DNA of 64,000 bases from Echinicola rosea (lineage in GTDB: Bacteria > Bacteroidota > Bacteroidia > Cytophagales > Cyclobacteriaceae): contig NZ_CP040106.1 of the NCBI RefSeq assembly GCF_005281475.1, forward strand, positions 3,314,501 through 3,378,500, written 5' to 3'. A program made the position numbers and the translations under genes. Positions 55,769 to 61,393 of this stretch are shown in pieces; position 1 is the stretch's first letter, and each line of letters opens with the position of its first letter. The notes under the pieces are model-generated. The model was not told the DNA's origin and did not search any database. It saw only the letters and a program-made list of their open reading frames with translations.

Positions 55769-56476
55769 TTAATTTGTGGGATTATAGGAGCCTCGCGCTA
55801 GTGGGGCTTTTATTTTTTTCTCCAGTGAATTGTGGAGGCTTTTGATGAAAGGTTGTTTTTCCCGCAGCTGCTTGAGAGAGGTGCGGTAGGTTTTTATCTT
55901 TCTGAGATCTGGAAAGCTAAGTTTATTTTTGGAAAGGGAGTATGCAATGGTCAGTGTCGGGAAATTGGCCAAGAGAATGAGTTGTTGGATGCCTTCGGTG
56001 GAAATCGGATGGAACCCCAGCTTTTTTGCAGCATTGTCCTGAAGGATGTACGAAGTGCCCTCCAAGACCATTTGGTCATGCACTGCATCTTGATGTTTCT
56101 CTATGAAATTGAGCAAGCCCTTCAAGTAACCCAAAAGAATCCATTGTGTCCGTGCGTAACCGGGAAGGTTAAAATCCAACACATAAAAATAGTCAAATAA
56201 GGTCCCTCCGTGAAATACGGTTTTATCATTGTCCAGCCTTTCTGTAATGAACATGGGGGAATAGTAAACCAGTTTGCCACTTCTTTTGCCCATGGGGGTG
56301 TCGATAAATGGAGCAACGATCATGATCAGGGGTGCCACAAGAATGCTGATCCAATATTGTTTAGTAAGAAAAGCAACAGCAAGGGTGAAGGCAAATACCA
56401 TAAAAACAGCTATACTGATGAGGATAATAAACCTCTTCTGGCTTTTTTCTGATTTATTGTAAAAGCGGTGTTTCAT
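55769..56476 (-). CDS. Uncharacterised membrane protein
   Basis: A 235-residue protein I do not recognise. Two membrane helices lie near the N-terminus (about 18-40, IILISIAVFMVFAFTLAVAF, and 43-60, ISILVAPLIMIVAPFID), and the rest is soluble and basic (many Lys in the last 60 residues). The AEC gene converges with it 30 bp away. The ATG at 56474-56476 is the start. Codon use looks ordinary. Confidence 0.7.
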   Translation of the reverse strand: MKHRFYNKSEKSQKRFIILISIAVFMVFAFTLAVAFLTKQYWISILVAPLIMIVAPFIDTPMGKRSGKLVYYSPMFITERLDNDKTVFHGGTLFDYFYVLDFNLPGYARTQWILLGYLKGLLNFIEKHQDAVHDQMVLEGTSYILQDNAAKKLGFHPISTEGIQQLILLANFPTLTIAYSLSKNKLSFPDLRKIKTYRTSLKQLREKQPFIKSLHNSLEKKIKAPLARGSYNPTN

Positions 56477-57379: not shown

Positions 57380-57689
57380 GTTGAGATTAGGTTTTTTTTA
57401 CTTTTTTTATATAATTTTTTACTTTTTTTCAGTAGAATGATGTTTGGTGAATTTAAGTAATGTTTGTTGGAGTTTCTTTGTGTGTCGTATTTTTTATGGT
57501 TTTTAAGTGGATTGTTTTGATTGTTAGCTAAACACGGTTTTTGCGAGTTGTTTTTTTAGGAAGAGCGTTGGTGGTTATGGTGATCTAGTCAGGGGAAAAG
57601 GTACGTACATAAATTCCGAATCGATTCACAAAGGTGGAATCCGAAAAGCCTTCAAAAGAGTAGGAAACTTTAACCAAAAATTAAACACA

Positions 57690-57914
57690 ATGAAATTTCA
57701 AGAATTGAATCAATCAGAATTGAAAGAAGTAAATGGTGGATTTTTAGGCGGTCTATTGGGCGGCGAAGAAGGTGGATCAAAAGGAGGACTCTTAGGAGGA
57801 CTGAGCATCCAATTCAGCTCTGAGTCTATGGACGATGATGGTGAAATGCAGAAAAGCAGCTTTGGAATCGAACTTTCCGACTTGGGTTCGTTTGAAAATA
57901 TATTCAGAGACTAA
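57690..57914 (+). CDS. Double-glycine-leader peptide precursor
   Basis: A 74-residue precursor. The first 17 residues (MKFQELNQSELKEVNGG) are a classical GG leader with Glu/Leu spacing and the Gly-Gly cleavage site, so a C39 peptidase should cut after Gly17. The 57-residue product has no Cys, begins with a Gly/Leu repeat (FLGGLLGGEEGGSKGGLLGG) and is strongly acidic in its second half (MDDDGEM; net charge about -8). The exporter and adaptor genes follow. Whether it is a bacteriocin, signal or surface peptide is unknown; no immunity gene is recognisable. Confidence 0.82.
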   Translation: MKFQELNQSELKEVNGGFLGGLLGGEEGGSKGGLLGGLSIQFSSESMDDDGEMQKSSFGIELSDLGSFENIFRD

Positions 57915-57932
57915 TCTGTTAATCACGATAGG

Positions 57933-57963
57933 AAAAGACAGCATGTAATTGCTGTCTTTTTTT
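57933..57963 (+). terminator. Terminator/attenuator between peptide gene and exporter genes
   Basis: AAAAGACAGC (57933-57942) pairs perfectly with GCTGTCTTTT (57951-57960) around an 8-nt loop, followed by further Ts. It lies 18 bp after the precursor stop and 12 bp before the adaptor start, so it would let the precursor be made in excess over the exporter. Confidence 0.8.
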
Positions 57964-57975
57964 ATTCCTAAAACC

Positions 57976-59148
57976 ATGAACAACAGGATTTTTCCATCGG
58001 ATATTGTTAAGCACACCTCAGATTATCACTTTCGCTACTACCATAAAAGCTCGATCGTGATCTATCAGGTAATATTGGTATTGGTGATGGTAGTCTTGTT
58101 ATCCTTGTTTTTTATTAAAGTGGATGTATCGGTAAAGGGATTGGGGATTTTAAAATCCGAAACACCACGGACCACCGTGAGGTCGCTTGTCAGTGGCCAG
58201 ATTGACGAGGTGTTTGTGAAGGAGAATGATAAAGTATCCAAGGGAGAGCTGCTTTTCACGATTCAGTCTTCCATACTTAACGAAAAAAACCGTCTTTATG
58301 ACAGCCAGATAGGAGATTTGGAAGCAAAAATGGGGGATTTAAGAAAATTGATCCGGTTATGTCGCCAAAATCTATGGGAAAAAGTGCCCCATCTGAATTC
58401 GTCCCAATATCAGCAAGAGGCCAACTATTTCTATCAGAAGCTTTCCGATATTCGCTCCCAGTATGCCATTGTCAAGAAGAACTATGAACGATCGAGAACA
58501 CTATTCGATGTAGGGGCGATATCCGAGCTCGAAATGGATAAGGTCACCCTTAGTCACGATAATGCCAAAAGTGACATTTATGTGACTGTGGATCAACAGG
58601 CGGCAATATGGCAATCTGTCCTGAGTGACCTTGAGCAGCAGTTGAAGCACCTGCAATCAGTGGATTCCCAGCTTCAGGAAGAAAAGGATTTTTACCGTGT
58701 CAAGGCCCCATTGACAGGCTATATACAGGACATCAAGGGAATTACGCCAGGAGCTGCGGTCACACCAAATTTCCAACTAGGGGAAATTTCTCCAGTCGGT
58801 GGCACCGTAGCCGAAATACGGGTTTCACCAGAAAACATTGGATTGCTGAAACCAGAAGGGCCTGTCAGTATTCAAGTAGATTCTTTCAATTACAATGAAT
58901 GGGGATTGTTACAAGGAGAAGTGCTTTCCATTTCTAACGACGCCTTTATGGGAGACGGGCGAGCCCCCTATTTTAAGGTGATCTGTTCTTTGGATCAGGA
59001 TTACCTGGAATTGAAAAATGGGTATAAGGGATATTTGAAAAAAGGGATGACCCTTCAGGCAAGGTTTGTACTTACGGAAAGAAGGTTGATACAGCTGTTG
59101 TTTGATCAGGCGGATGACTGGGTGAACCCAAATTTGGTTGAAAAATAA
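57976..59148 (+). CDS. HlyD-type adaptor of a peptide exporter
   Basis: From the ATG at 57976 (MNNRIFPSDIV) this is a 390-residue membrane-fusion protein. One anchor helix (about 28-47, VILVLVMVVLLSLFFI) is followed by a lipoyl half (VSGQIDEVFVKENDKVSKGE), a coiled coil (about 100-230) and a C-terminal barrel part. The TTG farther upstream lies inside the terminator hairpin and is not preferred. It bridges the C39-ABC exporter to an outer-membrane TolC protein, which is not in this locus. Confidence 0.88.
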   Translation: MNNRIFPSDIVKHTSDYHFRYYHKSSIVIYQVILVLVMVVLLSLFFIKVDVSVKGLGILKSETPRTTVRSLVSGQIDEVFVKENDKVSKGELLFTIQSSILNEKNRLYDSQIGDLEAKMGDLRKLIRLCRQNLWEKVPHLNSSQYQQEANYFYQKLSDIRSQYAIVKKNYERSRTLFDVGAISELEMDKVTLSHDNAKSDIYVTVDQQAAIWQSVLSDLEQQLKHLQSVDSQLQEEKDFYRVKAPLTGYIQDIKGITPGAAVTPNFQLGEISPVGGTVAEIRVSPENIGLLKPEGPVSIQVDSFNYNEWGLLQGEVLSISNDAFMGDGRAPYFKVICSLDQDYLELKNGYKGYLKKGMTLQARFVLTERRLIQLLFDQADDWVNPNLVEK

Positions 59149-59191
59149 AGCAGATACACTTGGCAATTCACACACCATAAACTGGGCTATC

Positions 59192-61393
59192 ATGAGCATG
59201 AAGAATTTTTTTGGGTTTAAAAACAGCTATAAACGCACAGAGGTAAAGCAGCATGATTTTACGGATTGTGGTGCAGCCTGTTTGGCGGCAGTGGCCTCTT
59301 TTCATCATTTAGAAATGCCGATTGCCAAAATCAGGCAAATGGCTTCCACAGACCGGAAAGGCACCAATGTCCTGGGGCTGATCGAGGCTGCCAAGAAGCT
59401 GGGATTTGATACCAAGGGAATCAGGCTGGAAGCAGACCAGCTGGAATTGGTACCGGTGCCGGTGATTGCCCATGTGATCGTAAAAAAAGTCCTGCATCAC
59501 TATGTGGTGGTATTGGAAGTAAAAAAGGACAAGGTGCTGTTGATGGATCCTGCAGAAGGAAAAGTCAAGGAGGTAGATCGCCAAATATTTGAGGAGATGT
59601 GGACAGGTGTGATGCTTTTGTTGCAGCCTGGTGAGACGTTCGAAAGGGGAGATTTTAAAGCGAGTATTTTCCAACGGTTTTGGTTTTTGCTTAAGCCCCA
59701 TAAGCGGATATTGACCCAGGTGTTACTCGGCGCGATCGTGGCTACTATTCTCGGATTGGCATCTTCTTTTTATCTCCAAAAGATCATTGACAATGTCCTT
59801 CCTGAGGGAAATCAGAACCTGCTAAACCTGATGGGGATCTGCATGGTGGTGATATTGGTCTTTCGGATCATTATTAGCTTTACCAAGTCAATTTTGACCG
59901 TCCAGACAGGCCAAAAGATAGATGCTCGCCTTATTCTAGGTTATTATAAACATTTGCTAAAGCTTCCACAGTCTTTTTTTGATAATATGCGGACTGGGGA
60001 AATCATCTCCAGGATAAATGATGCCGTCAAGATCCGAACATTCATCAATGATGTCATCATCGGTTTTGTGATCAATGTATTTGTCGTGGTTTTTTCATTT
60101 TCGTTGATGTTTGTCTTTTATTGGAAACTTGCACTTTTCGTTTTGCTGATCATCCCGATTTATGCTACCATTTATTATTTCTCCAATAAGGTCAACAGCA
60201 AAACACAGCGGCAGTTAATGGAAGATAATGCTGAATTGGAGTCGCAGCTGGTAGAATCTGTCAATGCTATAAGTACGATTAAGCGTTTTGGACTGGAGGA
60301 TTTTACCAATATGAGGACGGAGTCCAGATTTGTGGGCCTGCTAAAATCCGTTTATGCCTCCAGTATCAATAGTATCTGGATAGGGAGTTCCAGCACTTTT
60401 AGTACTTCTTTGTTTACCATCTTACTGCTTTGGATTGGGAGTTCTTTTGTGCTGGACAATGAGCTGACCGCAGGGGAATTGCTCTCGTTTTATGCGATAA
60501 TGGGATATTTTACCAAACCTGTGGCCAGTTTTATCGGGATGAACAAGCTGATCCAAGATGCCCTGATTGCTGCGGACCGGTTGTTTGAGATCATGGATGT
60601 AGATGTAGAGGAAAATGAGAAGTCCATGGAGCTTACAGCTGATAAACTTGGCGATATTCGTTTTATGGACGTGGAATTTCGTTATGGTACCAGAAAAGAC
60701 GTTTTCAAGCAATTGGATTTAGATATTCCCTTAGGGAAAATCACGGCTATTGTTGGCGAGTCAGGATCAGGGAAATCAACCCTGCTTTCCCTGCTTCAAA
60801 AGATTTATCCACTGGATGGAGGGAGGATAACCATCGGAGAGTATGACTTGAAATATATCGATCAATATTCCTTAAGAAAACTTGTAGGCGTAGTACCACA
60901 GGACATTCACTTATTTGCTGGATCAGTGATGGATAATTTGGCGCTGGGCGAATTTAACCCTGATATGACCAAAGTAATCAAGATTTGTAAGCGGCTAGGG
61001 ATTTTAAATTTTATTGAGTCCTTGCCAAAAGGATTTGACACCTATATCGGCGAAAATGGAGTGACCCTTTCCGGTGGCCAGCGGCAACGATTGGCCATTG
61101 CAAGGGCCTTGTACAAAGAACCGGAGGTGTTGATTTTCGATGAGGCCACTTCATCTTTAGACAGTTATTCAGAGTCATTTGTGAACGAAGTACTCCAATC
61201 GCTCCAGAAAGAAGGAAAGACGGTAGTGGTGATTGCTCATAGGCTTAGTAGCGTGATGCAGGCGGATCAGATTTTGGTGTTGAAAGAAGGGAAACTCGTG
61301 GAAAAAGGAAACCACACCTCTCTGATCAAAGCAGAAGGGGTTTATCATGAAATGTGGAAGCGGCAAGTGCCCACCAGCGTTTTGGTGGAGTGA
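59192..61393 (+). CDS. C39-peptidase ABC exporter
   Basis: Starting at the ATG at 59192 (59198 also possible) gives 733 residues. The C39 peptidase has Cys26 (DFTDCGAACLAA), His103 (HHYVVVLEV) and Asp119 (LMDPAEG). Six membrane spans follow (about 180-470), then the nucleotide-binding domain: Walker A GESGSGKS at 522-529, signature LSGGQRQR at 626-633 and Walker B LIFDEA with Asp650 and Glu651. It should cut the GG leader and drive the peptide out. The peptidase is intact, unlike toxin exporters with a dead C39-like domain. Confidence 0.93.
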   Translation: MSMKNFFGFKNSYKRTEVKQHDFTDCGAACLAAVASFHHLEMPIAKIRQMASTDRKGTNVLGLIEAAKKLGFDTKGIRLEADQLELVPVPVIAHVIVKKVLHHYVVVLEVKKDKVLLMDPAEGKVKEVDRQIFEEMWTGVMLLLQPGETFERGDFKASIFQRFWFLLKPHKRILTQVLLGAIVATILGLASSFYLQKIIDNVLPEGNQNLLNLMGICMVVILVFRIIISFTKSILTVQTGQKIDARLILGYYKHLLKLPQSFFDNMRTGEIISRINDAVKIRTFINDVIIGFVINVFVVVFSFSLMFVFYWKLALFVLLIIPIYATIYYFSNKVNSKTQRQLMEDNAELESQLVESVNAISTIKRFGLEDFTNMRTESRFVGLLKSVYASSINSIWIGSSSTFSTSLFTILLLWIGSSFVLDNELTAGELLSFYAIMGYFTKPVASFIGMNKLIQDALIAADRLFEIMDVDVEENEKSMELTADKLGDIRFMDVEFRYGTRKDVFKQLDLDIPLGKITAIVGESGSGKSTLLSLLQKIYPLDGGRITIGEYDLKYIDQYSLRKLVGVVPQDIHLFAGSVMDNLALGEFNPDMTKVIKICKRLGILNFIESLPKGFDTYIGENGVTLSGGQRQRLAIARALYKEPEVLIFDEATSSLDSYSESFVNEVLQSLQKEGKTVVVIAHRLSSVMQADQILVLKEGKLVEKGNHTSLIKAEGVYHEMWKRQVPTSVLVE

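Follow-up and report, generated by a model that had tools for sequence, protein, structure and literature searches.

We analysed a 64,000-nt stretch of Echinicola rosea DNA (the window; C1:3314501-3378500 of a 6.06-Mb single-contig genome), in which three consecutive genes encode a precursor peptide, a HlyD-type membrane-fusion adaptor and a C39-peptidase ABC exporter. A DUF805b cis-regulatory RNA precedes the precursor gene, and a stem-loop follows it (Table 1). A model that saw only the letters of the window and its open reading frames (ORFs) had described the locus as a self-contained maturation and export system for an acidic double-glycine (GG) peptide with a GGLLGG repeat; we refer to this description as the sequence-only reading.

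Table 1. Features of the precursor-adaptor-exporter locus, with positions counted from the first nucleotide of the window
Feature	Position	Strand	Basis and remarks
Precursor peptide gene	57690..57914	+	74 amino acids (aa); leader 57690-57740 (17 aa), core 57741-57911 (57 aa)
HlyD-type membrane-fusion adaptor, 390 aa	57976..59148	+	ORF list, HlyD_3 match
C39-peptidase ABC exporter, 733 aa	59192..61393	+	domain matches, Cys26/His103/Asp119
DUF805b cis-regulatory RNA (RF02914)	57631..57666	+	cmscan 47.2 bits, gathering cut-off 35.6, E 3.9e-12
DUF805b helix P1	57632-57635/57648-57651	+	RNA model
DUF805b pseudoknot	57640-57642/57663-57665	+	covariation
Promoter-like pair ATC-N18-CGT	57583..57606	+	tentative; TCC-N17-CGT at this position in relatives
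Perfect palindrome GAATCGATTC	57618..57627	.	sequence; just 5' of the RNA
Terminator-like stem-loop	57927..57966	+	-21.1 kcal/mol, z -7.6, 0/200 shuffles as good

The leader of the precursor ends in NGG, and the core that follows has no cysteine, a net charge of -8 and a glycine content of 23%, which for the window confirms the peptide as first described. The leader matches the model TIGR01847 (bacteriocin_sig) with 16.0 bits, narrowly past the cut-off of 15.7, and PF10439 with 18.0 bits, which is under the cut-off of 27.1. Since only the window precursor passes the cut-off among the four TIGR01847 matches in the 6.06-Mb genome, this match is more than chance. The library models cover essentially the leader and the Gly-rich start of the precursor. 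A protein search revealed an 89% identical protein of Echinicola strongylocentroti, and among solved structures the best match for the core had an E value of 0.12. For the adaptor, the ATG at 57976 is preferred as start codon over the mechanically assigned TTG at 57949; the protein matches HlyD_3 with 45.8 bits, and its matches to TIGR01843 and TIGR01000 are under their cut-offs. The exporter, read from the ATG at 59192, contains C39, ABC membrane and ABC ATPase domains and matches TIGR01193 with 569 bits (cut-off 523.85). It aligns over residues 16-725 with the solved C39 exporter 4ry2 (585 bits), which we take to be PCAT1, and Cys26, His103 and Asp119 fall on the Cys, His and Asp of the same triad. 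This comparison covers the exporter only, which in the window is accompanied by an adaptor gene. The domain models and the alignment thus confirm the trio of precursor, adaptor and exporter with its catalytic residues. PADLOC found no match for the precursor, the adaptor or a neighbouring 235-aa ORF, and eight of its models match the exporter within residues 468-706, which correspond to the ATPase part.

The initial protein search returned two Echinicola relatives. With a precursor profile, 13 precursor genes were found in 7 of 245 genomes of the home family, and 11 of 390 genomes of the order were matched, including six Dyadobacter-like genomes with eight genes; in a class-wide sample of 295, the own genome was the sole match. 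Two Belliella genomes carry two tandem precursor copies each, located 5' of the adaptor and exporter genes. The genes for precursor, adaptor and exporter occur together in all 13 genomes counted, which span two families (the genome G662, with a leader-only match at E 9.1e-5 and no exporter on its fragment, is outside this count). Thus, the recurrence of the three-gene order, which the sequence-only reading had named as the point to check, was found. The exporters behave accordingly: strong matches are present in 44 home-family genomes, and the seven exporters with 65-100% identity to that of the window, the only ones at or above 65%, are in exactly the seven precursor genomes. Identity drops to 51-60% at the next 41 exporter places in the family, and no precursor was found at E 1e-5 in the 37 genomes whose exporters are all of this kind. 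The six Dyadobacter-like exporters show 63-64% identity. An orthologous exporter kept without the precursor, which would have spoken against the peptide as its substrate, was not seen, as both are kept in 7/7 genomes, and this coincidence rules out the precursor as a loose partner. Together, the comparisons support a cassette that is self-contained for C39 processing and export and whose gene order recurs. A wider protein search with an E limit of 1 returned 182 proteins, and the best 120 include names from Pedobacter and Mucilaginibacter.

The core is alignable across genera. Its ratio of nonsynonymous to synonymous substitution rates (dN/dS, Nei-Gojobori) is 0.01-0.25 in 10 pairs, values that are rough since several dS exceed 1, and this pattern indicates that the core is under purifying selection. 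The tandem copies in Belliella encode near-identical proteins with diverged synonymous sites. A chance ORF is ruled out for the precursor by its presence in 13 genomes together with the low dN/dS. Such conservation would be unlike that of a fast-diversifying weapon, and a toxin with a conserved target would be compatible with it. The charge of the core varies: Echinicola cores have -8 or -9, those of Belliella and of the genome G038 have 0 to -1, and those of Dyadobacter-type members have -4 to -7. The near-neutral Belliella products rule out acidity as the key property, and 'acidic' does not hold as a defining trait. Similarly, the GGLLGG repeat is present in the window and does not extend to the family, as the doublets are reduced in Dyadobacter- and Pedobacter-type members. 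Better conserved than the charge are the leader and the residues L34, G36, S43, D50, G51, G59, G66 and F68, and in the wider family D48-x-D50. The core is Gly/Ser-rich, and no cysteine occurs in any of the 26 cores listed; the family alignments do not include the weak Cys-bearing matches P0018 and P0021. Synonymous divergence in the leader (17 codons, 57690-57740 in the window, and the relatives) is below that of the core for nine of the ten pairs. For these few codons, either constraint at the nucleotide level or gene conversion at the 5' end is a tentative explanation.

The statement of the sequence-only reading that no regulator is recognisable has to be corrected, since the DUF805b RNA ends 24 nt before the start codon of the window precursor. 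By score, the element is a member of RF02914, a family that reportedly goes back to Weinberg et al. 2017; in the literature searched, no paper naming DUF805b, 'DUF805 RNA' or DUF6520 was found. Three weaker Rfam matches in the window scan were taken as chance. An element is present upstream of 21/21 precursor genes: 17 reach the cut-off (12 of the 13 home-family copies and 5 of the 8 Dyadobacter-like ones), two are below it (one G038 copy with 34.8 bits and L257 with 23.6), and two, at L256 and L258, were recognised by motif only.

The alignment of DUF805b elements supports an H-type pseudoknot. After 15 of 112 motif matches with fewer than 3/4 of the P1 pairs had been left out, 97 elements remained, in which the motif held the neighbouring bases fixed and the two tested bases free. 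In 79 of the 97 elements, the base that precedes CCGAAAA makes a Watson-Crick pair with the one that follows AGTAGG; all four pair types are used, and 10,000 shuffles gave a mean of 30.4 and a maximum of 46. For the 96 unique elements, the true column gave 78 pairs and slid columns 9-29. A looser motif with free neighbours, a search that includes unrelated background matches, gave 100 pairs in 126 elements (one per locus; shuffle maximum 65) and revealed U-A double changes at the inner pair (for example in L111, L123 and L256) and one clear U-A double change at the middle pair (L128). The inner pair is broken in L084, L206, L254 (two copies), L257 and L258. The linker between the pseudoknot strands is variable, which speaks against a dimer-bound DNA operator. 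Compared to the Rfam family as such, DUF805b is here tied to C39-exported peptides, and its pseudoknot is supported.

DUF805b is not confined to the cassette. At E up to 1e-5 it was detected in 65 of 118 family genomes (50 over the cut-off) and at E up to 1e-7 in 126 of 295 class genomes (118 over the cut-off); 14 control genomes gave no match at 1e-5 or 1e-7, and all 14 had weak matches at E up to 1, none over the cut-off. A start codon lies 20-26 nt 3' of the element in 65 of 97 cases (95 with an ORF), compared to 2 of 97 in the opposite direction (where 40 had an ORF) and 96 of 1940 positions chosen at random (of which 1004 had an ORF). A second spacing group of 53-58 nt is DUF6520-like in appearance, and the stretch 3' of DUF805b is poor in G. 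Of the 93 ORFs downstream of the element in the family set, 67 have at most 130 aa. Precursors of the cassette itself account for 11 of the 93, and some of these come from loci collected as such; when all 11 are excluded, the number is 56 of 82. The family-model scan covered 85 of these proteins (eight were left out) and returned 14 DUF6520 and 8 PF10439 matches at E up to 0.01, and 9 pinensin leader, 8 TIGR04149 and 7 TIGR01847 matches at E up to 0.05, counts which overlap and may include matches below the curated cut-offs. In the own genome, DUF805b is located before two DUF6520-like ORFs, a family-less 287-aa protein and a 22-aa hydrophobic ORF. The latter, L066 (C1:697144-697181, minus strand), consists of the element followed by the 22-codon ORF MDLITNLLDVVLGLLSSLLGGL, which has no leader.

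Two further observations concern DUF805b outside the cassette. At L063, L078, L096, L106, L107, L108 and L119, a conserved paired stretch of the CTGCC...GGCAG type (~58 nt, identified by eye) abuts the 5' end of the element; most copies precede DUF6520-like genes, and the stretch is possibly a second RNA element. At L104 and L105, DUF805b lies 24-25 nt before an aldehyde dehydrogenase gene (in L105 judged by resemblance), which departs from the prevalence of small-protein genes.

Further putative signals flank the RNA and the precursor gene. The pair TCC-N17-CGT is found 40-46 nt 5' of the RNA in 11 of 12 home-family upstream stretches, the window having the weaker ATC-N18-CGT only, and this promoter-like block might be a promoter of the extracytoplasmic function (ECF) type. 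The promoter-like region looks different in Dyadobacter-like loci. TAnnTTTG promoters occur in 8 of 96 upstream stretches, and a sigma-70 promoter scan found 8 matches with 10.0 expected. The palindrome GAATCGATTC is identical in Echinicola salinicaeni (L180), and several Belliella and Dyadobacter-like copies have other short inverted repeats at this place. The stem-loop is located between the precursor and adaptor genes; a consensus terminator scan, which found 5 terminators with 4.6 expected, does not list it. Hairpins are also present 3' of the other home-family precursor copies and in 6/6 informative Dyadobacter-like stretches (seven were folded, of which one is cut inside the coding sequence and uninformative).

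All ORFs of at least 45 aa outside the trio were compared all-against-all (E 1e-3) among the 13 loci. No gene beyond the trio is common to more than five of them, with the limit that a diverged, very small or distant gene would escape this comparison. In particular, no gene for immunity, peptide modification or sensing (sensor kinase, response regulator or receptor), no thiol oxidoreductase and no transmembrane-protein partner is common to the 13 loci. The view that immunity and modifying genes are missing is thus borne out comparatively, and the 235-aa ORF at 55769-56476 is ruled out as an immunity gene because it is not shared among loci. LanB/LanC genes are present at another locus of the genome (L028). 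There is no TolC-type outer-membrane gene within the cassette; a genome-wide search for one was not made. Two partners are lineage-specific. In five of seven home-family loci (four Belliella and G038), a gene for a surface protein starts 19-35 nt after the exporter gene. Where complete, this protein has 1038-1298 aa, with a type IX (type B) sorting domain, DUF11 repeats and an isopeptide-forming fimbrial domain; the G038 copy is split over two frames, and its first part has no Pfam match. In five of six Dyadobacter-like loci, a small divergent HTH_3 gene lies about 490-710 nt upstream, also in L254, whose wider flank is unlike that of the other four; a search of the window and of home-family loci found none. 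The Echinicola pair has common flanks with genes which by eye are RpiB-like and 6-phosphogluconate-dehydrogenase-like, so that in this pair the locus is one inherited in place.

Based on these observations, we propose that the locus is a class-II-type minimal peptide export cassette. On the precursor mRNA, the 35-nt H-type pseudoknot would most likely set the level of precursor translation, as suggested by the fixed spacing and the G-poor stretch after the element. The stem-loop after the precursor probably ends many transcripts, and the peptide would then be made in excess of the transporter. The intact triad and the leader suggest that the C39 domain cuts after NGG, and the exporter and the HlyD adaptor, presumably together with an unlinked TolC-like channel, would release an unmodified peptide of about 57 residues. 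This product might be a conserved peptide of the cell surface or matrix that acts on the community of the producer itself. Our best explanation, which we hold with less than even confidence, is a minimal RNA-led cassette that exports a conserved peptide, narrowly of the surface or matrix kind.

As the use of the product, we tentatively place a surface or matrix role narrowly before an antibacterial one, because of the fimbria-like protein 3' of the exporter and the precedent of EbfG1-4 and PteB in Synechococcus elongatus (PMC4997328, PMC9981879). There, EbfG1-4 are described as being exported by a C39 transporter for biofilm formation, and EbfG1-3 as forming fibrils. Like our cassette, the system combines several small GG-motif proteins with a C39 transporter and a bacteriocin-type leader; it belongs to another phylum, a biofilm role has been shown for it, and the likeness considered here is that of the export layout. 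The conserved core, the near-identical tandem copies and the Gly/Ser-rich composition also fit a surface role. The adhesive function, which the sequence-only reading offered beside signalling, metal binding and killing, gains support from the fimbria-like surface protein encoded 3' of the exporter in 5 of 13 loci. Several observations weigh against our proposal. No relative of the surface protein exists in the 64-kb window, in E. salinicaeni L180 or in the six Dyadobacter-like stretches, and it is therefore not a required partner. The cassette is patchy, since two of the nine genomes sampled from the genus have the precursor, and there is one clear orphan precursor without a nearby exporter (L183). 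The AlphaFold models, with mean pLDDT (predicted local distance difference test) values of 54.1 and 56.8, are too poor for use. A DUF805b match of 31 bits, under the cut-off, precedes a precursor-like ORF in the LanC/LanB/C39 cluster of the own genome, which favours killing. Class-wide, only 9 of the 27 ORFs found at 29 elements have at most 130 aa, others being lipoprotein-, opsin- or membrane-like by eye. We therefore tone down the idea that DUF805b marks peptide genes: it precedes mostly small-protein genes in the home family and a broader set in the class.

The breadth of downstream genes in the class bears directly on the role of the RNA. Together with the fixed distance to the start codon and the G-poor stretch, it would also fit a generic translation-supporting 5' leader of Bacteroidia that does not respond to conditions, and whose presence would indicate no more than good translation of the gene. 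This has a considerable chance of being right, if somewhat below an even one, and is compatible with each of the uses of the peptide discussed here. The patchy use of the element in the family genomes and its preference for small-protein genes there argue in the other direction, as do the near-constant unpaired bases and the compensated pseudoknot, which resemble a binding site.

Alternatively, the peptide could be an antibacterial toxin of the class II type directed against related Bacteroidota. The cassette resembles class II microcins of the colicin V/MccV type in the GG leader, which with 17 aa falls in the range of 15-18 aa given for their GG/GA leaders, in the C39 exporter with its triad and the HlyD-type fusion protein (PMC10233263, PMC9746304), and in the absence of a modifying enzyme, as in class IIa. 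The leader families carry bacteriocin names, and the patchy presence and the occurrence of DUF805b at lanthipeptide-type precursors point in the same direction, all three at the expense of the surface role. However, microcins are described as having highly variable cores and a requisite immunity protein (PMC9746304, PMC10233263), although some may be without one (PMC9746304), whereas here the core is conserved and the 13 loci have no immunity candidate in common. Because of these two differences, we do not file the cassette as a class II microcin, from which it also differs by its occurrence in Bacteroidota and its RNA-led precursor. The missing immunity gene is by itself no argument against killing, since bacteroidetocins, exported this way in Bacteroidota, are reported to kill without an immunity protein (PMC6671954). 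Bacteroidetocins also share the GG leader and the C39 exporter with our cassette (PMC6671954, PMC8546649). According to the same sources, however, they have at least two Cys, are basic, and are encoded next to a transmembrane protein and mostly a thiol oxidoreductase, while the product described here has no Cys and is neutral to acidic, and its loci have an HlyD adaptor instead of such common partners. An immunity-free, bacteroidetocin-like toxin is possible, and we consider it rather doubtful. A modified peptide of the lanthipeptide type does not fit, as no modifying enzyme is common to the loci.

It is tempting to speculate further that the DUF805b pseudoknot acts as a switch that binds a ligand or a protein and thereby gates the translation of a social regulon in Cytophagales. 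This regulon would comprise peptides exported through C39 transporters, precursors of the lanthipeptide type, DUF6520 peptides and very short peptides. The window cassette with its conserved, immunity-free secreted peptide would be the cleanest case, induced by binding of a metabolic or population cue to the RNA, and the peptide would perhaps be a matrix protein, in some lineages partnered with the type IX-secreted surface protein. Taken as a whole, this combination is unlikely.

Even less probable is a self-directed signal or pheromone that is sensed by kin and whose production is tuned by the RNA. The strong purifying selection on the core and the near-identical tandem copies would fit a conserved receptor, a BlpC pheromone model weakly matches 16 of 60 family members (best E 0.0013), and the HTH_3 gene could be a partner in Dyadobacter-like loci. 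On the other hand, that gene is restricted to those loci, and the kinase and response regulator that characterise ComC/BlpC-type systems, like any receptor, are not shared by the 13 loci. Any use other than surface or matrix, antibacterial or signalling is quite improbable.

The cassette is of interest for two reasons. An RNA family of unassigned job gets a directly testable case, a 35-nt pseudoknot at a fixed distance from small genes of the secreted type. In addition, a peptide family is defined that existing models detect essentially through its leader, and to which named proteins of Echinicola, Belliella, Dyadobacter, Pedobacter and Mucilaginibacter belong. In environmental Bacteroidota, this family would be one more group of toxins without an immunity gene or, alternatively, a conserved factor secreted for the matrix or as a signal.

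Finally, sister C39 exporters with 57-60% identity to the window exporter are associated with another type of gene. An HTH_11 DNA-binding protein is encoded just 3' of such an exporter in the own genome (L027:9870-10199, C1 about 1994869-1995198) and in L222-L244, altogether in 21 of 24 loci examined out of 41 sister-exporter places. These proteins end in a tail of variable sequence that is preceded by a leader-like GG (14) or AG (5), and two are truncated; thus they look like regulators with a C39-cleavable tail. Ordinary GG-leader peptides adjoin the HTH_11 genes in L223, L235, L239 and L243. Near those of L225, L228, L230, L234, L236 and L237, a CAAX-protease-like membrane protein, mostly of 214-231 aa, was identified by eye, a type often annotated as bacteriocin immunity, in contrast to the window cassette. 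Apart from the exporters, one pattern search showed that the string GAGTTTGCCTGCATGAGGGGAGG is present at 20 exact places in the own genome, none of them in the window, and thus represents a dispersed repeat family.

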